From the IMG/VR virus record IMGVR_UViG_3300036785_000399, positions 1 to 22,030 of that record: DNA of 22,030 nucleotides; one strand, 5' to 3'. The notes beneath the pieces were generated by a model, which was given only the letters and a program-made list of their open reading frames with translations, had not been told where the DNA came from and ran no database searches. The position numbers and the translations under genes were made by a program. Shown here piece by piece: positions 1-13,782 of the stretch (its first letter is position 1; the number at the start of each line of letters is the position of its first letter). This stretch comes from a virus.

Positions 1-541
1 ATTTGGTGGGCTTACCAGCCTTCAGGTGTCTGAAGCGCACGTCCACTCTAAGTTTGGCTCGCGCTATTACTTCAGGATCTACTTGCTTCTTCACTGAGCC
101 ATTGCGTTGAATAATATCTTTATAATCTTTACTCACATCATCAGCAATTTGCACAACTTCTTCTTCAAATATATTGAGCCTGTCAGTAATTGACTGATTA
201 AATAGTTCTTGAAATTCTGGATGAGATCTGAGCCATTGATTACAGCGGCGCACTGTTGGCATATGTGACTCATTGCATACATTGATCAATAATTCTCCAG
301 CACTGATGCGCTCACATATCTCATTGGCTATAACGTCATTGAAGTCTAATTTATTCTTAATGGGCCAAAGGCGCTTGCGCTCAGCCTCTTCATGGGCTTT
401 GCGCATTTCTTCTTGTTCTTTTCTCATTCTTACGCGTTGATTATGCTCACGCTGAAGGCGCTCATACTCTTCAGCTGACATGATGCGCTTTTCACCTGGC
501 TCTAATGGCCCAAATGGATCAAATCGTTCTGAATCACCCAT
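1..541 (-). CDS. terS: Terminase small subunit, Sf6-type (partial, C-terminus outside window)
   Basis: DNA-recognition subunit of the packaging motor: it binds the phage packaging site and hands DNA to the large terminase. Read leftward from ATG 541-539, the visible 180 codons begin MGDSERFDPFGPLEPGEK. A charged helix follows, then a helix-turn-helix-like stretch (ISAGELLINVCNESHMPT, then VRRCNQWLRSHPEF), then EEEVVQIADD and, near the cut, IARAKLRVDVRFRHLKAG. That order of motifs (small-gate HTH, 'WLRxHPEF', 'ADD', 'RAKLRVDxR') is what I know from Sf6-type small terminases, where the last segment usually continues as W..KLAPKKYG. The end lies outside the window. Its ATG overlaps the stop of the upstream gene by 8 bases (ATGGGTGA), so the two are probably translationally coupled. 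It is unusual that it lies on the opposite strand and about 6.4 kb from the large subunit gene. Confidence 0.8.
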   Translation of the reverse strand, partial: MGDSERFDPFGPLEPGEKRIMSAEEYERLQREHNQRVRMRKEQEEMRKAHEEAERKRLWPIKNKLDFNDVIANEICERISAGELLINVCNESHMPTVRRCNQWLRSHPEFQELFNQSITDRLNIFEEEVVQIADDVSKDYKDIIQRNGSVKKQVDPEVIARAKLRVDVRFRHLKAGKPTK

Positions 542-1413: not shown

Positions 1414-2964
1414 ATGGCAGATGATGATGATGGTGACAATACTTATCCAACACCAGAAGAAATGGCGCAATATAAAAAGGATTTATTCGGTGATAATGTT
1501 GTACAGTTTCCTACTGGGCAGAAAGATGATACGCCACAAGATAGAGCGTTGGCATTAAGTAAAGATTATGCTATAGTCACTAAAAATGCCAGAGTCAAGG
1601 TCATTGATGAGACGCGCCCAGATGATATTATATTTCTGGACAAAAAAGATTTTTATGATAAACTTTCTTATCGTAAAGTAACCATTACAGTTACACAGCC
1701 TAAAGGTGGAATAAGTGCGAGATTTGAACCAGAAGCTAAATTATGGTTTGAAAATCCTAAAGCTAGAAGATATGAAAGAGTTATATTTAATCCACATCCA
1801 AGCAAAAAACATAGCCCAAACGGTGGTGGTGATTATAATTTATGGCCAAATTTTGTTGTTAAGCCAAAACATGGTGTTTGCATTAAAACATTGAGATATT
1901 TCAGAAAGATATTGAGTAATGGCAATAAGACAGTACATAGATGGCGTATGGCTTGGGCAGCACAAATGTTCCAGCGCCCATGGGAAAAGCCTGAGACAGC
2001 TATATGTTTACATGGTGAAGAAGAAGGAACTGGTAAATCTTTTTTCCCATTAATACTTTCGAAATTAATGGATGGTTATGATTCTAGTCGCGCCCATAGA
2101 TTGTATTTTAAAACGTCAAACGCTAAAATGATTACTGGTGATTTTAGTGGCCATCTTGAACATTGTTTATTATTACATGCTGAAGAAGCATTCAGAGCAG
2201 AGAGTGAGCGAGAAGATAGCATAATCAAAGCTATCATATCAGAAGAGGATCAAGGTATTAATCCAAAAGGAGTTGAGGCTAAAATAACTAAGAATTACAT
2301 TAGATTGATATTGACTGGTAACCCACCACATATTGTTAAGGCTGGTCGATTTGCTAGACGATTTCTTATATCAAATGTATCATCAGAGCATAGAATGGAT
2401 TTCCAATATTTTAGGGAAATATTAGATGAACTCAATAATGGTGGATATGAGGCGCTCATGTATTATTTCATGCACTATCCAATTGATAAATTCAATCTCA
2501 GAGAGGCGCCCAAGACTGAAGAATTATTGGAACAGAAATTAGAGAGTTTGAATGCTGAGGAACGTTTTTGGTACAATATGCTTTGTATTGGTGAATTGCC
2601 ATTTGTTGGCACAAGTGAGAATAAATATTATGGAAATGGTATTGAATATCATGTGATGAAACATAAGATGTTCAATCAATTCCAAAAGTTTACTAATAGG
2701 CGTGTGGGAAGAAATAGATCAGATGAAACTAGTTTTGGTATGCGTTTTGCGCAATTCTTTCCTGTGATAAATGGTGATGGTACTATCAGGAGGGAGCGTA
2801 ATGGTAAGAATATGCGTTTTCTGAAAACCGATAAGCATCACGATACTAACTGCTATATCATTCCTTCAATATCATTATGTAAAGCCATGTTTTCTGCATA
2901 CGAGGGACAGTATATTGACTGGCCAAATAGTGAGGAATGGATAGAAAAGCAATTTGGAGATTAG
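1414..2964 (+). CDS. DUF5906/SF3-like helicase ATPase (replication)
   Basis: P-loop ATPase of the DUF5906/D5-primase-C type, expected to unwind DNA at phage replication forks. Visible motifs: Walker A GEEEGTGKS (about residues 201-209), an acidic Walker B-like CLLLHAEEA (about 251-259), a sensor-like LTGNPP (about 300-305) and an arginine pair ARRF (about 314-317). The N-terminal ~150 residues show no archaeo-eukaryotic primase catalytic motifs, so at 516 residues it resembles a stand-alone helicase and not the long primase-helicase fusions. The C-terminal ~120 residues (NQFQKFTNRRVGRNRSDETS onward) resemble a winged-helix or DNA-binding tail. GGGAGGG 4 bases upstream fixes the start. A 930-base repeat-rich noncoding region follows immediately, which suits an origin next to its helicase. 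The ATPase family is well supported; the exact role is inferred. Confidence 0.8.
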   Translation: MADDDDGDNTYPTPEEMAQYKKDLFGDNVVQFPTGQKDDTPQDRALALSKDYAIVTKNARVKVIDETRPDDIIFLDKKDFYDKLSYRKVTITVTQPKGGISARFEPEAKLWFENPKARRYERVIFNPHPSKKHSPNGGGDYNLWPNFVVKPKHGVCIKTLRYFRKILSNGNKTVHRWRMAWAAQMFQRPWEKPETAICLHGEEEGTGKSFFPLILSKLMDGYDSSRAHRLYFKTSNAKMITGDFSGHLEHCLLLHAEEAFRAESEREDSIIKAIISEEDQGINPKGVEAKITKNYIRLILTGNPPHIVKAGRFARRFLISNVSSEHRMDFQYFREILDELNNGGYEALMYYFMHYPIDKFNLREAPKTEELLEQKLESLNAEERFWYNMLCIGELPFVGTSENKYYGNGIEYHVMKHKMFNQFQKFTNRRVGRNRSDETSFGMRFAQFFPVINGDGTIRRERNGKNMRFLKTDKHHDTNCYIIPSISLCKAMFSAYEGQYIDWPNSEEWIEKQFGD

Positions 2965-2990
2965 ATTACACAGCCTATGGACGTGAAATA

Positions 2991-3207
2991 CCTACCTTTT
3001 CGGAGGAAGGTAGAGGCGAAAAAGCTAACGATTTCAAGGGCCTAGGGAGCCACCATGAAATCCTACCTTCACGTTCAACTTGCCTATGATTTTCTCATGA
3101 ATTACGCGAGACAGTATTCAGATAGTAAAGGTTAGCAAGGTGTCTAAGTCGTTGTTATTACTAGTGAAATATACTTCTACCTTTATTTAAAAGGTAGGAA
3201 AGGTAGG
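2991..3207 (+). repeat. CTACCTT / AAGGTAG inverted repeat cluster
   Basis: The 7-mer CTACCTT occurs at 2992-2998, 3063-3069 and 3177-3183, and its complement AAGGTAG at 3007-3013, 3191-3197 and 3200-3206. That is six copies in 215 bases. The copies can pair as hairpins (2992 with 3007; 3177 with 3191 or 3200), or the 3007 arm can switch to the 3063 copy. Whether it acts as DNA (protein sites) or RNA (attenuator-like switch after the helicase gene) cannot be decided from sequence. Confidence 0.7.
3055..3135 (+). CDS. Possible 26-residue peptide inside the CTACCTT cluster
   Basis: A short ORF from ATG 3055 to TAG 3133-3135 (begins MKSYLHVQLAYDFLMNYARQ). GGGAG lies 5 bases upstream, a ribosome binding site like those of the early genes. 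Its second to fifth codons contain one CTACCTT copy that can pair with AAGGTAG at 3007-3013, so the start could be sequestered in a hairpin. It could be a regulated small protein or a leader peptide, but a chance ORF of this length is common. The evidence is the ribosome binding site and location only. Confidence 0.3.
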   Translation: MKSYLHVQLAYDFLMNYARQYSDSKG

Positions 3208-3262
3208 AAGAACTAAGCGCATCAAAGACAAACTATGGGCTATACTGTTTTTTAGAAATTCT

Positions 3263-3571
3263 ATGGTGGCGCAACCAAGATGGTGGTGGATGGTGATGGT
3301 GGATGGCTAACATAATAATGGCTTAAAATTGTAAAAATTGATGGTGGGTGATGGGGATGGTGGATGGTGGATGGTGATGGCTATGGTGGATGGTGAATAC
3401 TTCAACCATCATGAATTCATGGTCCAAACCTCATCATGATGGTGAATGGTGGCGCGGCTATGGTGGATGGTGATGGCTATGGTGGATGGTGGATAGTGAT
3501 GGCCTATGGTCACCATAATGGTTACCATAGTCTATAGCCATTACTTCATAATCACTATACCATAGCCATGT
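3263..3571 (+). repeat. ATGGTGG/GGTGGATGGTGATGG direct repeat field with inverted CTATGGT arms
   Basis: A noncoding field of iterated GGTGGATGG and GGTGATGG units. An exact 30-base direct repeat lies at 3366-3395 and 3462-3491, 96 bases apart. On its right side the orientation flips: CTATGGT (3504-3510) faces ACCATAG (3524-3530), and GGCTATGG copies (around 3379, 3457 and 3477) have a complement CCATAGCC near 3564-3571. No frame across it gives a plausible protein. It resembles an iteron or origin-like region, but the function is inferred. Confidence 0.7.
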
Positions 3572-3673
3572 AATGCATTGGGCGCGACTATAGCCTGTGA
3601 ATTCATGAATTCATGAGCATTGTATCAGAGCATATATACTCATGTAAACGCGTGATAAAGTTGTACGTGCTTT

Positions 3674-3688
3674 GTTCTCGGTTTGTTC
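3674..3688 (+). promoter_or_regulatory. SOS-like box GTTC-N7-GTTC
   Basis: GTTC at 3674-3677 and 3685-3688 are separated by seven bases, inside a larger 11-base-period direct repeat TTTGTTCTC. A direct repeat GTTC-N7-GTTC is the LexA operator known from Alphaproteobacteria such as Rhodobacter and Sinorhizobium. Host LexA control is an inference from that match. Confidence 0.6.
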
Positions 3689-3725
3689 TCAGTCATTCTT
3701 GAGGGGTGAATAGTGTACAAATCCA

Positions 3726-3740
3726 GAACATATCCAGAAC
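3726..3740 (-). promoter_or_regulatory. Second SOS-like box, opposite orientation (GAAC-N7-GAAC)
   Basis: GAAC at 3726-3729 and 3737-3740 is the reverse complement form of the box at 3674-3688. It lies within its own 11-base-period repeat ATCCAGAAC. The two boxes face one another across 37 bases. This pairing makes chance occurrence of either one less likely. Confidence 0.6.
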
Positions 3741-3850
3741 TAGTGATATGTGACATGTGAATTGAATAAGTGATATTATGAAATTGATAAAATGATAAAG
3801 TGAAATGAACTAGTGATAAAATGAAATAGGCAAATGATAATATGATTATA
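3741..3850. other. AT-rich strip with repeated TGATA/GATAAA words
   Basis: About 110 bases rich in A and T between the SOS-like boxes and the last two palindromes. It contains many short repeats of TGATA, GATAAA and ATGAAAT, and CTAGTGATA twice (the first straddles 3740). No reading frame of note. Such a strip next to iterated sites would suit a DNA unwinding element, but this is inference from composition alone. Confidence 0.4.
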
Positions 3851-3948
3851 TCATGAATTCATGACCAAGTCCAATTCACTCATCATGAATTCATGACGCC
3901 CCAGGTGAGGCCGACCAAGCCAGGGCCAGGTCCAGCCGGCCACGCCGG

Positions 3949-4143
3949 GCTCAAGAGCCAGGCCAAGCTCAAGCCTCAGCCAAGGCTCAAGGCCAGGTCA
4001 ACTTCGGAAAAGCAGAAGCTCAGCCCAACTTCGGAAAAAGAGAAAGAGCCCAGCTCACCTTCTGCAAAGCAGAAGTCCAACTCAACTTCGGAAAAAGCAA
4101 AATCGTCTCCGACCAGTTTCGGAAAACGAGAACATTCGGAAAA
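3949..4143 (+). repeat. 18-bp tandem repeats followed by TTCGGAAAA repeats
   Basis: GCTCAAG begins at 3949, 3967 and 3985, an exact 18-base period. Then TTCGGAAAA occurs at 4003, 4030, 4087, 4118 and 4135, with the variant TTCTGCAAA at 4060. Spacings of 27, 30 and 27 are multiples of three, later 31 and 17. In the forward frame open from 3893 this gives LK-xxxx and TSEKxK peptide repeats, so the array could have been coding. However, there is no ribosome binding site, and spacing loses the three-base rule at the right end. The base composition is GC-richer than the flanking phage DNA. Confidence 0.6.
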
Positions 4144-4199
4144 TCCAAAATTGTCTCCGAGATCACATGATATTCCGAAAAAACTTTTTTTAAAATTAT

Positions 4200-4241
4200 T
4201 TGTGCAACAGACTTGCACAAAGGCCGGACTTCCCTTATATA
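4200..4241 (+). promoter_or_regulatory. Operator-like inverted repeat and promoter of the GC-rich gene
   Basis: TTGTGCAA (4200-4207) and TTGCACAA (4213-4220) form a perfect 8-base inverted repeat with a 5-base centre. The right arm supplies a weak -35 (TTGCAC, 4213-4218), followed after 17 bases by TATATA (4236-4241). A repressor or activator bound to the repeat would cover the -35. The -35 is only a partial match to consensus. Confidence 0.5.
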
Positions 4242-4289
4242 GGAGGTCCGGCCGGTTTCGGTCGGGCCGGTTCCGCCGCGTGCGGCCCG
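4222..4289 (+). promoter_or_regulatory. GC-rich leader with competing hairpins
   Basis: GGCCGGAC (4222-4229) can pair with GTCCGGCC (4246-4253). CCGGCC (4248-4253) can instead pair with GGCCGG (4265-4270). CGGGCCG (4263-4269) can pair with CGGCCCG (4283-4289). These pairings exclude one another and lie just before the AAGGA ribosome binding site (4303-4307). If transcription starts near 4248, only the second and third exist in RNA. Regulation by structure is a hypothesis. Confidence 0.45.
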
Positions 4290-4315
4290 GTTTCCCTCTA
4301 AAAAGGACTAGTAAC

Positions 4316-4801
4316 ATGCTTAAGACCGTCTCGAAAAAAGTCGCTGCTCGCACCTCTGCTAAGGCCGCAATGCTCTCTGCGAAGCGCGAACGCGCTATCG
4401 TTGCGCATGCGGACGCGATCGCGTTCTGCGAGGCCGAGGGCATTACAGGCAATGCCCGCAAGGGACTTGTCGCCTCCGCCTCTACCGCAATGCATGCGGA
4501 CAGCGCACGCGGCAAGATCGCGCACGCAGTCCTCGTTGCGGGTGTCTCGGCAGATTATTCCTTCGCGGACGTTGCGAAGGCCGCGAAGGTCTCGCGTGCG
4601 GACGTTAACCGCGCGAACCTTTTCTATATCGCGCGCAACGTCGCGTTTCGTCGCGATCTAGTCGGGTTTGTTGTTTCGTTCGATATGCCGAGCGAAACAA
4701 TTAGCGTCCGCGTCTATCGCGCAGAGGCCGCTAAGGCCCCTCGCAAGGCCGCTAAGGCCGCCCCGGTTGCGGCCGAGGTGTCCGGCCCGGACGCGGCCTA
4801 A
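4316..4801 (+). CDS. GC-rich, Ala/Lys-rich moron-like protein of unknown function
   Basis: A 161-residue basic protein I do not recognise. ATG 4316 is chosen because AAGGA (4303-4307) lies 8 bases upstream. The frame stays open back to 3893, but that part is repeat DNA without a ribosome binding site. Residues 1-30 are rich in Ala, Lys and Arg. Residues 82-100 (FADVAKAAKVSRADVNRA) look like a helix-turn-helix. The tail is a low-complexity AKAPRKAAKAAP-type segment similar in style to histone H1-like proteins. Codons are dominated by GCC, GCG and CGC, very unlike the AT-rich genes on either side. With its own promoter/operator, leader and two terminators it forms an independent unit, as moron genes do. 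A DNA-binding role is plausible, not shown. Confidence 0.75.
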   Translation: MLKTVSKKVAARTSAKAAMLSAKRERAIVAHADAIAFCEAEGITGNARKGLVASASTAMHADSARGKIAHAVLVAGVSADYSFADVAKAAKVSRADVNRANLFYIARNVAFRRDLVGFVVSFDMPSETISVRVYRAEAAKAPRKAAKAAPVAAEVSGPDAA

Positions 4802-5472: not shown

Positions 5473-5994
5473 TCATAAGGCCAATTTGAATACCTCTATG
5501 GTGGCGCGCCATCCGCCTATGCTGATGGGCACCTTCTTTGCTCCAGACATGTCTGATGGGATATTGGCCAAAAGTTCAACTTTGCGGTCTGAGAAATCCC
5601 CATTGATGATGGTTACAATGGAGCCTTTACCGTAAAATGGCCTTTTGAATATAATGTCATCGAAAGTACCTAAATGAAATAATTTCATGCTTTCATTGAT
5701 CATACTTTTTCTGACGAGAATAGGTTGGTTATCTATACTGAGTATTTTGATGAAATTACTAGTGGAACGACATATATTGATAGTTATGTACTGTCTGAAT
5801 TCTATGAATAAATAGTTGCGCCATAAAGGTACAAAGTCACCAAGTCTATTGCGTTTAAATGGGTAGTACGTTTTAAGTGACTGATCATTAGCTCTTCTGA
5901 TTACTTGTGTAGCGCCTTTGTCTTTGAACATAGCTACTGACCAATTGAATTCTTCTGGGGTGGCGCAGCTATCGTGAGTAAATAGGTCCAGCAT
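5473..5994 (-). CDS. NusG/RfaH-like transcription elongation factor
   Basis: 173 residues. The N-terminal part (FNWSVAMFKDKGATQVIRRA, then TYYPFKRNR and PLWRNYLFIEF) has the spacing of a NusG NGN domain: W-x-V near the start, a 'yyP' in the middle and 'lFpgYlFv'-like LWRNYLFIEF. The C-terminal part has a KOW-type GKGSIVTIINGDFSDRKVELL. Such proteins bind RNA polymerase and suppress pausing or termination, often on specific operons as RfaH does. GGAGG 7 bases ahead of the ATG gives a strong start. It may serve as an antiterminator for the long phage late operon or act on this cassette; that is inference. No tail motif identifies an operon-specific ops-like target. Confidence 0.75.
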   Translation of the reverse strand: MLDLFTHDSCATPEEFNWSVAMFKDKGATQVIRRANDQSLKTYYPFKRNRLGDFVPLWRNYLFIEFRQYITINICRSTSNFIKILSIDNQPILVRKSMINESMKLFHLGTFDDIIFKRPFYGKGSIVTIINGDFSDRKVELLANIPSDMSGAKKVPISIGGWRATIEVFKLAL

Positions 5995-6990: not shown

Positions 6991-8367
6991 ATGGGTGATT
7001 TTGGGTTCGTGCCTGCCGCGCATCATGAGTTATTGATTAAAAAATTAGAAGATGTTATATCTGGTAAAATAGATCGTTTGATGGTGTTTATGCCGCCGGG
7101 GAGCGCAAAGTCAACGTATGTATCTGAGCTGCTACCGCCTTTTTGGTTCAAAAAATTTCCTAGGTCATCAATAATTGGATGCAGCCACACTGGAGAACTA
7201 GCTGAGCGCTTCGGGCGCAAGGTGAGAAACAGAATACTACAAAAGGCGGATGTACTTGGATATACACTTGATGAATCAAACAGAGCCGCAAGTAGATGGG
7301 AAACCACAACAGGTGGAGAATACTTTGCTGCTGGCGTGGGAGGAGCTATTACTGGTCGTAGAGCTGACCTTGCAATCATTGATGATCCTGTCAAGTCTCG
7401 TGAAGAAGCTGAATCAGAACTCGTTAGAGAGAAAACTTTCGAGTGGTATAAGAGTGACTTGGTAACACGTCTCAAGCCTAATGCGCGCATTATACTTATA
7501 CAGACGCGCTGGCACCTAGATGATTTAGGAGGAAAGCTGATACACGAAATGGAAAAAGGTGGTGACCAGTGGAATATCATCAATCTACCGGCCTTTGCGG
7601 TAGCTGATGACCCAATGGAGCGCGACGTGGGCGAACCACTTTGGCCAGCTTGGGAAAGCGCTGAGGCACTGGAAAGAAAGCGCAAAATTCTAGGCCACAG
7701 AGATTTTGAAGCACTTTATCAACAAAATCCGCAGCCGCCTGGTGGTACATTCTTTTTGGAAAAGGATTTCCTTAATGATGGCAATCCTGTTGACTATCCT
7801 ACTTGGTGTGATTGTGTATTCGCTACTATTGACACTGGTATCAAAACCGGATCACAACATGACGCAACAGGAGTTATTTATTGGGCGCTGAATGAATATG
7901 ATAAAGAGACGCCATTAACGATTCTAGATTATGACTTGTGCCAAGTTGACGTATCGCTATTGATTGAATGGATACCGCAAGTTTATGAAAATTTGGAAGT
8001 TTACGCCAAGCAATGTAAGGCGCGCCTCGGAAGCACTGGTCCTTTGATCGAAGATAAAGGATCTGGAACCGTACTTCTTCAGCAATGTAACCGCAATAAT
8101 TGGCTCGCCACAGCGATTGATTCAAAATTGGTACAGCTGGGGAAAGAGCCGCGCGCCCTGTCAGTGTCTGGATATACCAATCAGGGAAAGATTAAAATCT
8201 CTGAACATGCGTACAGAAAAACCATAGACTACAAGCAGCGCCACGCGAATCACCTGATGAAGCAAGTGTTCACGTTTAATGTTGGAGTAAAAGATCAGGA
8301 AGATGATTTGGTGGATTGCTTGTGCTATGGAATTATCTGTGGGCTTGGGAACATTGAGGGGTATTGA
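6991..8367 (+). CDS. terL: Terminase large subunit (packaging ATPase-nuclease)
   Basis: Motor that pumps phage DNA into the prohead and cuts it. Walker A MPPGSAKST (about residues 34-42), Walker B LAIIDDP (about 127-133) and coupling motif QTRWH (about 171-175) make the ATPase. The nuclease domain has Asp in FATIDTG (about 277-283), EDK in LIEDKGSG (about 352-359) and Asp pairs in EDDLVD (about 437-442). At 458 residues from ATG 6991 it is short at the N-terminus. The same frame is open back to 6838 and encodes a sensible helix (CRTSLLKWSKEC before MGDFGFVPAAHH), but contains no ATG, GTG or TTG. AAAGGAG lies only 3 bases before the ATG, so the annotated start is usable but not certain. Family assignment is secure; the start is the weak point. 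Confidence 0.9.
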   Translation: MGDFGFVPAAHHELLIKKLEDVISGKIDRLMVFMPPGSAKSTYVSELLPPFWFKKFPRSSIIGCSHTGELAERFGRKVRNRILQKADVLGYTLDESNRAASRWETTTGGEYFAAGVGGAITGRRADLAIIDDPVKSREEAESELVREKTFEWYKSDLVTRLKPNARIILIQTRWHLDDLGGKLIHEMEKGGDQWNIINLPAFAVADDPMERDVGEPLWPAWESAEALERKRKILGHRDFEALYQQNPQPPGGTFFLEKDFLNDGNPVDYPTWCDCVFATIDTGIKTGSQHDATGVIYWALNEYDKETPLTILDYDLCQVDVSLLIEWIPQVYENLEVYAKQCKARLGSTGPLIEDKGSGTVLLQQCNRNNWLATAIDSKLVQLGKEPRALSVSGYTNQGKIKISEHAYRKTIDYKQRHANHLMKQVFTFNVGVKDQEDDLVDCLCYGIICGLGNIEGY

Positions 8368-8370
8368 CCT

Positions 8371-8433
8371 TGGTAAGGGAATGGCGGTGAAGTGCTCTTG
8401 TTCTCCCACAATTGAGCTACCTTACCATTTTTT
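8371..8433 (+). terminator. Possible terminator or structured RNA after terL
   Basis: TGGTAAGG (8371-8378) pairs perfectly with CCTTACCA (8420-8427), directly followed by TTTTTT. The 41-base loop can form a smaller GCTC/GAGC stem. The T-tract suits an intrinsic terminator, but the long loop weakens it. If real, terL and the structural genes would be partly separate units or depend on antitermination. Confidence 0.5.
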
Positions 8434-8481
8434 ATTCGTAGATTGTCATCGATCTTGGTGACATAAAAAGAGGTGGTACAA

Positions 8482-9036
8482 ATGGCCGGTGTTGATGTTA
8501 CTATTGTCGGCACAATGACACAGACAGGTTTGGGTGTGGGTGGTGGGCCAATGCCTGGTGGTCCTGGACCAGCCCATCCGATTGCTCCTGGTGGTCCGCC
8601 TCCGGTAGTGTGGCCTGGACCAGGATACCCTGCGCACCCTATTGCACCTGGTGGGTCACCTCCTGGCATTTGGGGCGGTGGCAATGAAGGTTTTCCAACT
8701 CACCCAATAGTGATTCCACCAGGGTTCATTGACGGCGTTCATCCTGAACATCCTATCGTCATTGTTCCTCCTGGTCATCCGACACATCCAATTGTCATCC
8801 CACCGGATGTGGGCATTTGGCCGCCGGATGCTCGTCCTGAGCATCCCATCGTGATTCCGCCGCCAACGACAATTTGGCCGCCATTGCCGTCACATCCTAT
8901 CGTGATCCCTCCTGATGGACCGCCGCAGGTACTTAGTAATTGGGATGTGAAAACGTATTGGACGGAAGAAGGCGGCTGGGCTGTGGCAATCGTTCCGAGC
9001 GAGAGCCACCCTGGCGTGCCGACGCCAAGCAAGTAA
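8482..9036 (+). CDS. Proline-rich HPI-repeat protein (virion or assembly protein, unknown)
   Basis: 184 residues with a highly repetitive core: seven HPI motifs (two as HPIAPGG, five as HPIVIPP or close variants) with spacers such as IWPP. The first 20 residues (MAGVDVTIVGTMTQTGLGVG) are a short Gly-rich lead. The last ~40 (LSNWDVKTYWTEEGGWAVAI onward) look like a small folded domain. The repeats suggest an extended polyproline-type fibre. Similar HPIAPGG-type proteins are, to my knowledge, found in phages and annotated as hypothetical. Start 8482 is set by AGAGGTGG 5 bases upstream. It lies between terL and portal, where head-assembly and decoration genes are usual. No function can be assigned from sequence. 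Confidence 0.7.
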   Translation: MAGVDVTIVGTMTQTGLGVGGGPMPGGPGPAHPIAPGGPPPVVWPGPGYPAHPIAPGGSPPGIWGGGNEGFPTHPIVIPPGFIDGVHPEHPIVIVPPGHPTHPIVIPPDVGIWPPDARPEHPIVIPPPTTIWPPLPSHPIVIPPDGPPQVLSNWDVKTYWTEEGGWAVAIVPSESHPGVPTPSK

Positions 9037-11596: not shown

Positions 11597-11971
11597 ATGC
11601 CTTTAACCAATAAAGGTGAAAAAATTAAAGGCGCCATGGAAAAAGAATATGGCGCAGAAAAAGGTGAAAAAATATTTTATGCATCAAAAAATAAAGGTGT
11701 AATATCTGGAGTAGACGCAATGGCTTATGGGCATCCAGTAGTAGAAGTTGCTAAAAGAATGTCTGATATGGTAGGAAGAATGGATGCTTTTATTAGCAAA
11801 AGAATGAAGCGTGGTGATACTTTTGAAGAACCAAAGCATCCTAGAAATGCTGGTGGTGTATTTACTCCAGCAGGTGAAGAAGGGAAAGAAGAAAAAACTG
11901 ATAAAGCTAAGAAGGATCAAGATTTGGAACAACGCCCTGAACTTCGTGAAGGTGCGTTGAGTAAGAAATAA
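11597..11971 (+). CDS. Small phage protein with KGEKI...YASKNKG motif
   Basis: 124 residues. The start NKGEKIKGAMEKEYGAEKGE followed by KIFYASKNKGVISGVD is a short motif I associate with phage head-gene clusters, often fused or next to prohead protease genes. The middle (VVEVAKRMSDMVGRMDAFIS) is helical, and the tail is charged and disordered. It lies 2 bases after the previous stop, and its TAA overlaps the next ATG (TAATG), so it is translated with the Nudix-protease-scaffold protein. It may be a scaffold helper; not proven. Confidence 0.6.
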   Translation: MPLTNKGEKIKGAMEKEYGAEKGEKIFYASKNKGVISGVDAMAYGHPVVEVAKRMSDMVGRMDAFISKRMKRGDTFEEPKHPRNAGGVFTPAGEEGKEEKTDKAKKDQDLEQRPELREGALSKK

Positions 11972-13782
11972 TGGCTGAGACAGAGCGTTGCGCTGGGATT
12001 TTATTTGTTTCAAGCCGAGGTAATGGGCTATTTTTAAAGCGTTCTGATCATGGTGATTATGCAGGGTGGTGGGGATTACCTGGTGGGCACCTTAGACCTA
12101 GTGAAACACATCATCAAGCTGCACGGCGTGAATGTCGAGAAGAAATTGGTCAATGCCCTAGAGGTGAATTAATAGAGGTAAATCGCCAAGTAACAACAAT
12201 CGAAGGAGATGATCAAAAACATACTAGAACAGTTGATTATGTTACTTATCTTCAAAATATAGAATATGAATTTATACCAGAGTTAAATAAGGAACATCAA
12301 GAATTTATCTGGGCACCTCCAGGTAATACACCAAAGCCTCTGCACCCAGGATTAGAAATCACATTAAAGAAAATGCATTCAGACGAACTTGGTATTGCTG
12401 AATTAATGCAACAAGGATTGGTTAGTTCGCCACAAAAATACGGTAATATGTGGCTTTTCGATATAAGAATTACTGGAACAGGTTTATCATATAGATCCGG
12501 TCCTAAAGAATTTGTTTGGAGAGATGCTTCTTTATATTTGAATGAAAGATTTTTAAAGCGTATTAACGGTTTACCAGTAATATTTGAACATCCTAAAACA
12601 AGTACGCTGAATACTAAAGAATACGTTGAGCGCAACATTGGATCTGTATTTATTCCATATATAAAAGGTGATGAAGTTTGGTCAATTGTTAGGATTTATG
12701 ATGAATTTGCTGCAAAAATTATGTCTGAGAACAGATTATCAACTTCTCCGGCTGTAGTATTATCTGGTAATGACGTAAAGGTTCAGTTAGAAAAGGATGA
12801 AGATCCTATATTATTTGAAGGTGTTCCTAGAATTGTTGATCATATTGCGATTTGTTTATTAGGTGTTTGGGACAAAGGAAATGAACCTACTGGCGTGGCC
12901 AGTATAGCAGTTGGAGATTTAGTTATGGCCGATGAAGATACCAAAGCTGCCGCAATGGAAGCCGCTCGTAAAGCTGATGTAGAAAAGGCTGCTGATGCAA
13001 AGGCTAAGGCTGATGCAGAAAAAGCTAAGGCTGATGCTGAGGCGAAAGCTAAGGCTGATGCGGCAAAAGCTAAGGCCGATGCTGAGGCCGGCGAATTATT
13101 GGATAAGACATTGAAATGTCTTGATTCTATGAGCGCGCGCTTTGATGCTTTTGAAGAAGCAGAGAAAACTCGCCAAGACAGAAAAGCTCAAAAGCGAGCA
13201 GATAAAGCAAAAGCAAAAGCTGATGCGGCAGCTAAGGCCAAAGCAGATGCTGGTGAAGACGAAAAGAAAAAAGAGGAAGAAAAAGAAAAAGCTGATGCGA
13301 AAGCTAAAGCGGATGCTGAAAACGAAGTTCGGAAAAGAATTGCTGATGTTGAACAGCGTCTACCAAAACAGATTACAGATGCTGATTATGCAGCGATGGC
13401 TGATGCTCAGGTAAAGGCCGATCGTATTATGCTAATGCATGATAAGCGCGCACCTGGTCCTTGGGGTGGGGAGGCGCTACTTGCCTACCGCCGTCGCCTT
13501 TCTGAAGGACTAAAGGAGTTTTCTCCCAGGTGGAAAGAAGTTAACTTGGGTGTTGTCGCAGCAGATGAGACAGCATTTTCAAATATTGAACAAATGATCT
13601 ATGCAGATGCCGAAGCTGCTGGATTAAATCCTCCTGCACCTGCTGAGGGTTTTCTTAGAGAAATCGTCGATCAAGACAGAACTGGTCGTAAAATTTCAAC
13701 ATTTGTTGGAAATCCGTCTGCGTGGATGGAACAGTTTTCTTCTGGTAGACGGAGATTGGCCGGTATCCGAAATAAATCTTAG
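11971..13782 (+). CDS. Nudix hydrolase + DUF2213 prohead protease + KADA scaffold fusion
   Basis: 603 residues with four parts. Residues 1-150 are a Nudix domain: GGHLRPSETHHQAARRE then CREEIG at 39-60 fits the Nudix box (G-x5-E-x7-RE-x2-EE-x-G). About 155-320 is a DUF2213-type prohead protease, with His in VIFEHPKT and Ser in LSTSPAVV as the likely catalytic residues. About 320-450 is a Lys/Ala/Asp/Glu repeat (KADA, AKAKADA), a long helix or coiled coil typical of scaffolds. About 455-603 is a folded tail (ITDADYAAMADAQ to RRRLAGIRNKS). The protease and scaffold parts suit capsid maturation just before the structural genes. The role of the Nudix domain, on the same chain, is unknown. A fused gene error is unlikely because the frame is uninterrupted. 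Confidence 0.8.
   Translation: MAETERCAGILFVSSRGNGLFLKRSDHGDYAGWWGLPGGHLRPSETHHQAARRECREEIGQCPRGELIEVNRQVTTIEGDDQKHTRTVDYVTYLQNIEYEFIPELNKEHQEFIWAPPGNTPKPLHPGLEITLKKMHSDELGIAELMQQGLVSSPQKYGNMWLFDIRITGTGLSYRSGPKEFVWRDASLYLNERFLKRINGLPVIFEHPKTSTLNTKEYVERNIGSVFIPYIKGDEVWSIVRIYDEFAAKIMSENRLSTSPAVVLSGNDVKVQLEKDEDPILFEGVPRIVDHIAICLLGVWDKGNEPTGVASIAVGDLVMADEDTKAAAMEAARKADVEKAADAKAKADAEKAKADAEAKAKADAAKAKADAEAGELLDKTLKCLDSMSARFDAFEEAEKTRQDRKAQKRADKAKAKADAAAKAKADAGEDEKKKEEEKEKADAKAKADAENEVRKRIADVEQRLPKQITDADYAAMADAQVKADRIMLMHDKRAPGPWGGEALLAYRRRLSEGLKEFSPRWKEVNLGVVAADETAFSNIEQMIYADAEAAGLNPPAPAEGFLREIVDQDRTGRKISTFVGNPSAWMEQFSSGRRRLAGIRNKS

Follow-up and report, generated by a model that had tools for sequence, protein, structure and literature searches.

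A pair of LexA-type boxes kept behind the replication helicase gene in a family of tailed phages, a candidate binding site for host LexA

Between a helicase gene and a small GC-rich gene of a tailed phage lie two copies of the direct repeat GTTC-N7-GTTC, the core of which is described as the LexA operator of Alphaproteobacteria (PMC12700426, PMC3323433). This raises the question which protein reads such boxes in a phage genome: the SOS repressor of the host, or a protein that the phage itself supplies. The window, by which we mean the whole 22,030-base stretch of DNA analysed here, holds the following features around the boxes:

2-541, minus strand: terminase small subunit gene, Sf6 type (PF20901), cut by the window edge
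1414-2964, plus strand: DUF5906 (PF19263) phage primase/helicase-type gene, upstream of the gap
2965-4315: long intergenic gap in which the box pair lies, together with ATGGTGG-type repeats and four palindromes of the TCATGAATTCATGA type
3619-3648, minus strand: weak promoter-like site directed away from box 1
3671-3692, plus strand: 11-bp direct repeat that contains box 1, TTTGTTCTCGG/TTTGTTCTCAG
3674-3688, plus strand: box 1, a LexA-type direct repeat GTTC-N7-GTTC, GTTCTCGGTTTGTTC
3717-3738: 11-bp direct repeat that overlaps box 2, ACAAATCCAGA/ACATATCCAGA, repeat family D13
3726-3740, minus strand: box 2, GTTCTGGATATGTTC as read on that strand
3750-3779, plus strand: weak promoter-like site directed away from box 2
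4316-4801, plus strand: GC-rich small gene for a predicted winged-helix protein of 161 aa
6991-8367, plus strand: terminase large subunit gene, the query with which relatives were found

The initial annotation had taken this DNA to be that of a phage, and the terminase, portal and capsid genes identify it as a tailed phage. Its helicase is about 29% identical to the best cultured relatives. The genes for the small and the large terminase subunit lie on opposite strands, about 6.5 kb apart. At 11971-13782, a NUDIX domain starts a 603-aa phage protein that matches phrog_6216, and 5476-5994 gives a weak NusG-like match (E 0.0027, below the Pfam cut-off). No tRNA genes were found.

The two boxes face each other with 37 bases between them (52 bases from start to start), and they are the only exact matches to GTTC-N7-GTTC in the 22,030-base record. 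In the position, spacing and facing arrangement of the boxes, and in the 11-base-period repeats that surround them, the initial annotation was accurate; it had also placed them in noncoding DNA, which is correct for the gap except that the frame of the GC-rich gene stays open upstream as far as 3893. The comparison with shuffled DNA that it had proposed gave a divided answer. Count alone is insignificant, since two boxes stand against an expected mean of 0.54 and 11 of 100 shuffles reach at least two. The pairing, in contrast, was never reproduced: under a first-order Markov model of each gap (20,000 runs each, with a pair defined as two boxes 15-80 bp apart), 0.009-0.027 boxes are expected per gap in five family members (0.027 in the window), and not one pair arose in the 20,000 runs for any of these five, the window and four relatives. 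Thus, the number of boxes is unremarkable by itself, whereas their pairing within one noncoding gap is remarkable.

A search with the terminase returned 15 related loci, of which 14 are 73-89% identical. The gap is present in six of the latter, namely L004, L005 and L007 with a near copy each (L006 and L008, respectively), and L015, such that four distinct, divergent relatives can be compared with the window. (As a query in IMG/VR, the window helicase alone found no relative, while an alignment succeeded.) Locus L009 starts near its GC-rich gene, has no helicase match and for this reason stands outside the comparison. All four relatives carry boxes in the gap, and in each of them, as in the window, the pair lies downstream of the DUF5906 helicase gene. 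The pairs of L005, L007 and L015 are exact, at 30-31 bp from start to start, and in L004 an exact box is followed, at a distance of about 60 bp, by a facing box with one core mismatch, read from the sequence. The 18-mer TGTTCTCGGTTTGTTCTC at box 1 of the window is found again in L005-L008. The orientation of the boxes varies: they face each other in three genomes (the window, L004 and L007), and in the other two (L005 and L015) they are tandem. When L005 and L007 are aligned, box 2 falls inside an unchanged block; box 1 occupies the same aligned spot in both, on opposite strands and within unrelated letters, a picture that we read as selection on box position with orientation left free. The GC-rich gene accompanies the boxes in all five genomes in either orientation, and its inversion in L005 and L007 leaves the boxes there between convergent genes, with a terminator-like hairpin in L005. 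A more distant member, L019, has a helicase 33% identical to that of the window and 44% to that of L004, but it lacks an exact box and has only overlapping matches, each with one mismatch, some 140 bp past the helicase gene; the E. coli-type LexA motif CTGT-N8-ACAG does not occur in L019.

With respect to the letters of the boxes, we collected operators from alphaproteobacterial lexA loci (31 sites) and recA loci (15 sites). Nine exact phage boxes give the consensus TGTTCTcGgTTTGTTCTc, which is close to alphaproteobacterial recA sites (ATGTTCTtaTtTTGTTCT) and to the promoters of second lexA genes (GTTCTC....TGTTCTC). Most phage boxes have matrix scores above those of unpaired background matches, a background of only 13 sites, and the fit is weaker for box 2 of the window than for box 1, as well as for one box each of L007 and L015. 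Among the matches listed in a genome scan for the facing pair are Gammaproteobacteria that carry it directly before a lexA-like gene, and also some alphaproteobacterial places; the three such gammaproteobacterial genomes that were tested have two lexA genes each, with the facing pair at one of them. The pattern that yielded the second-lexA set prescribes some of the letters, which are therefore unusable as evidence, but at positions that it did not prescribe (5 and 16, both C) the likeness to the phage boxes persists. The likeness to LexA operators put forward in the initial annotation therefore appears to reach beyond the eight core letters, and the position of the boxes is kept in relatives. 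The matches listed also include rumen Bacteroidales (L073-L152) with dispersed hairpins of 11-base units like GTTCTTCGATT, which fit the facing pattern yet look like another repeat family.

Pairing beyond simulation, conserved position, operator letters and the facing pairs before lexA genes all support the reading that host LexA binds this pair, a double site conserved behind the replication helicase gene. We put the probability of this reading at about 0.5. No S24/LexA-like protein was found in the family contigs, which indicates a host protein as the reader. Two LexA dimers would occupy the box pair and repress transcription that starts in the gap, presumably of an origin or leader transcript and not of the next coding gene. 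DNA damage or infection would then provoke the SOS response, and with the cleavage of LexA, replication from the gap region would be released. On this view, the phage listens in on the DNA-damage alarm of its host or disturbs it. Several observations argue against host LexA: there is no convincing promoter at the boxes, L019 is without an exact box, the neighbouring gene may encode a winged-helix protein, and cultured relatives of other box-carrying phages lack pairs.

What, then, would be controlled from this gap? The initial annotation had considered the GC-rich gene downstream, and this is unlikely, as 575 bp separate the start of the gene from the boxes and its orientation is reversed in L005 and L007; in L005, the convergent genes and the terminator leave no coding gene for the boxes to regulate. 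No convincing promoter overlaps the boxes in the family members scanned, only weak promoter-like sites, and the two of the window are given low weight because such sites outnumber shuffles all along this gap. The initial annotation had called the region origin-like, and it may be so: as at iteron-type origins, direct repeats stand beside a replication gene in the window. The cumulative GC skew has no extreme at the boxes in four records and shows no clear switch, and no DnaA box is found in the window gap, even when one mismatch is allowed, an exact one being present only in the family member L004. DnaA boxes near the box clusters of other phages are too few to support a conclusion (5 in 51 kb, versus 6 in 588 kb elsewhere). 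The gap also contains ATGGTGG repeats, which are G-rich, and the 14-bp palindrome TCATGAATTCATGA, which occurs four times, at 3409-3421 (without the last base), 3603-3616, 3851-3864 and 3883-3896.

The strongest rival to host LexA is a protein of the phage, likeliest the predicted winged-helix product of the GC-rich gene, which would bind the boxes as an origin binder or local regulator and whose LexA-like sites would be a case of convergence. The constant company of this gene and the boxes speaks for such a role, as does the resemblance of the direct repeats beside the helicase gene to iterons. The gene has a GC content of about 60% as compared to 41% for the phage, and the model of its 161-aa product (mean pLDDT 77) matches winged-helix proteins at Z about 6, such that the product may be a winged-helix DNA-binding protein; however, Z values under 8 are common, Foldseek gave no match to the model with E below 0.1, and no family can be named with confidence. 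Furthermore, the boxes share their letters with genuine lexA and recA operators, the gene has no match in the contigs tested from phages of other lineages that have the same box pairs, and L019 possesses a GC-rich gene of similar sequence (8003-8599) with no exact box. We regard a phage-encoded reader as possible but doubtful.

A second alternative keeps LexA as the binding protein and changes the purpose of binding. Replicated boxes would act as a sink that draws LexA off the chromosome and switches host repair genes on, with no phage promoter being controlled. The location between convergent genes in L005 and L007, the terminator-like hairpin of L005, the free orientation of the boxes and the clusters of many boxes in some other phages would all suit a sink. 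However, two boxes per genome are few where more copies would be favoured, and there is no reason for a sink to stay in one place behind the helicase, which makes this explanation unlikely.

It is very improbable that the boxes are a DNA packaging element recognized by the terminase. Box clusters do lie near terminase genes elsewhere (58 bp before TerS in L320, and before TerL in L392), and the window family also has a TerS of the Sf6 type, but the boxes of the window are kilobases away from both terS and terL, and phages whose terminases are of other types (T7-like, HTVC033P-like) have this motif too. An RNA hairpin or intrinsic terminator formed by facing repeats can practically be dismissed, since, although the arms are able to pair in the window, in L004 and strongly in L007 (z -4.1), the fold of the window has z = 0.15, and the free orientation of the boxes between L005 and L007 and the tandem boxes of L005 and L015, which cannot pair with each other, mean that pairing arms are not kept in all members. 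Rfam gave no match at the gathering threshold.

The boxes had initially been taken as the best host clue in the window; as a specific sign of an alphaproteobacterial host they are not supported: the same facing pair precedes the second lexA gene of several Gammaproteobacteria, so that the host need not be alphaproteobacterial, and the portal and capsid proteins of the window (49% and 60% identity) have their nearest relatives in phages that infect Enterobacteriaceae and other Gammaproteobacteria. An alpha-type lexA in Acidobacterium is the subject of a title cited in PMC3323433. The motif would fit Alphaproteobacteria, Gammaproteobacteria with a second LexA or, going by that cited title, Acidobacteria alike. 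No terminase relative was found in genome_contigs, and no host is therefore assigned. The host inference is thus corrected, in that a GTTC-N7-GTTC box by itself does not mean Alphaproteobacteria.

Box pairs also occur outside this family. In IMG/VR, the facing pair is present in 16 contigs, as compared to none for the letter-matched control, and the matches come from two lineages only. The tandem pair is present in 118 contigs, versus 14 for its letter-matched control, part of these matches being coding or simple repeats. Among the tandem contigs analysed, a cut-off of 60% protein identity yields 39 groups, against 13 among the controls; cut-offs of 50-70% identity were used to define lineages, 35% having merged most tandem contigs into one group. 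Since facing and tandem pairs both exceed their controls, the feature may be widespread. Some phages have large clusters in which several GTTC-N7-GTTC boxes on one strand are followed by several on the other (L285 2549-2890, L310 472-752, L284 5487-5827 and L392 4534-4687). About nine viral contigs form a group in which a promoter-like TATATAAT stretch has a box on either side (L321 3797-3861, L358 6502-6566). For three box-carrying lineages, Roseobacter or Pelagibacter phages are among the best cultured matches of the terminase. The cultured relatives HTVC033P, CRP-125 and CRP-361 have scattered single boxes and no close pair, and a DNA search of the box-cluster regions against cultured phages returned no match or short weak ones. 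A general device, by which many unrelated uncultured phages would use LexA-type boxes, clustered between genes in facing or tandem order, to read or titrate the host SOS repressor, is a tentative and rather unlikely extension; it would be the LexA counterpart of the CtrA-site signature, with the window family as one case.

That signature consists of clusters of CtrA sites in the gaps and terminal repeats of phages of Alphaproteobacteria, for which binding and gene control were tested (PMC9437464). There, too, sites for a host regulator are concentrated in phage gaps across unrelated lineages, but the regulator differs. The alphaproteobacterial LexA operator shares with the phage boxes the eight-letter core, the spacing and much of the wider motif at lexA and recA, whereas the phage boxes are paired within a gap and, in two relatives, lie between convergent genes and not before an SOS gene. 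Closer in layout is the operator pair of the gammaproteobacterial second lexA, likewise two facing GTTC-N7-GTTC boxes with GTTCTC...TGTTCTC letters; that pair, however, is located at a lexA gene, whereas no lexA was found in the phage, where the boxes are sometimes tandem. Host LexA-type sites in a phage genome are also found in GIL01, a temperate phage in which the host LexA boxes lie at a known promoter and a protein called gp7 acts as helper (PMC4551915). No tyrosine integrase was found in the eight records searched here, which may be fragments.

Phages that use host LexA are known mainly as temperate phages with the boxes at a promoter. A conserved, orientation-free pair of LexA-type boxes behind a replication gene and at a distance from coding promoters, if true, would be a sign of damage sensing in replication itself or of LexA titration, and the pattern is one that can be searched for and tested over many phages.
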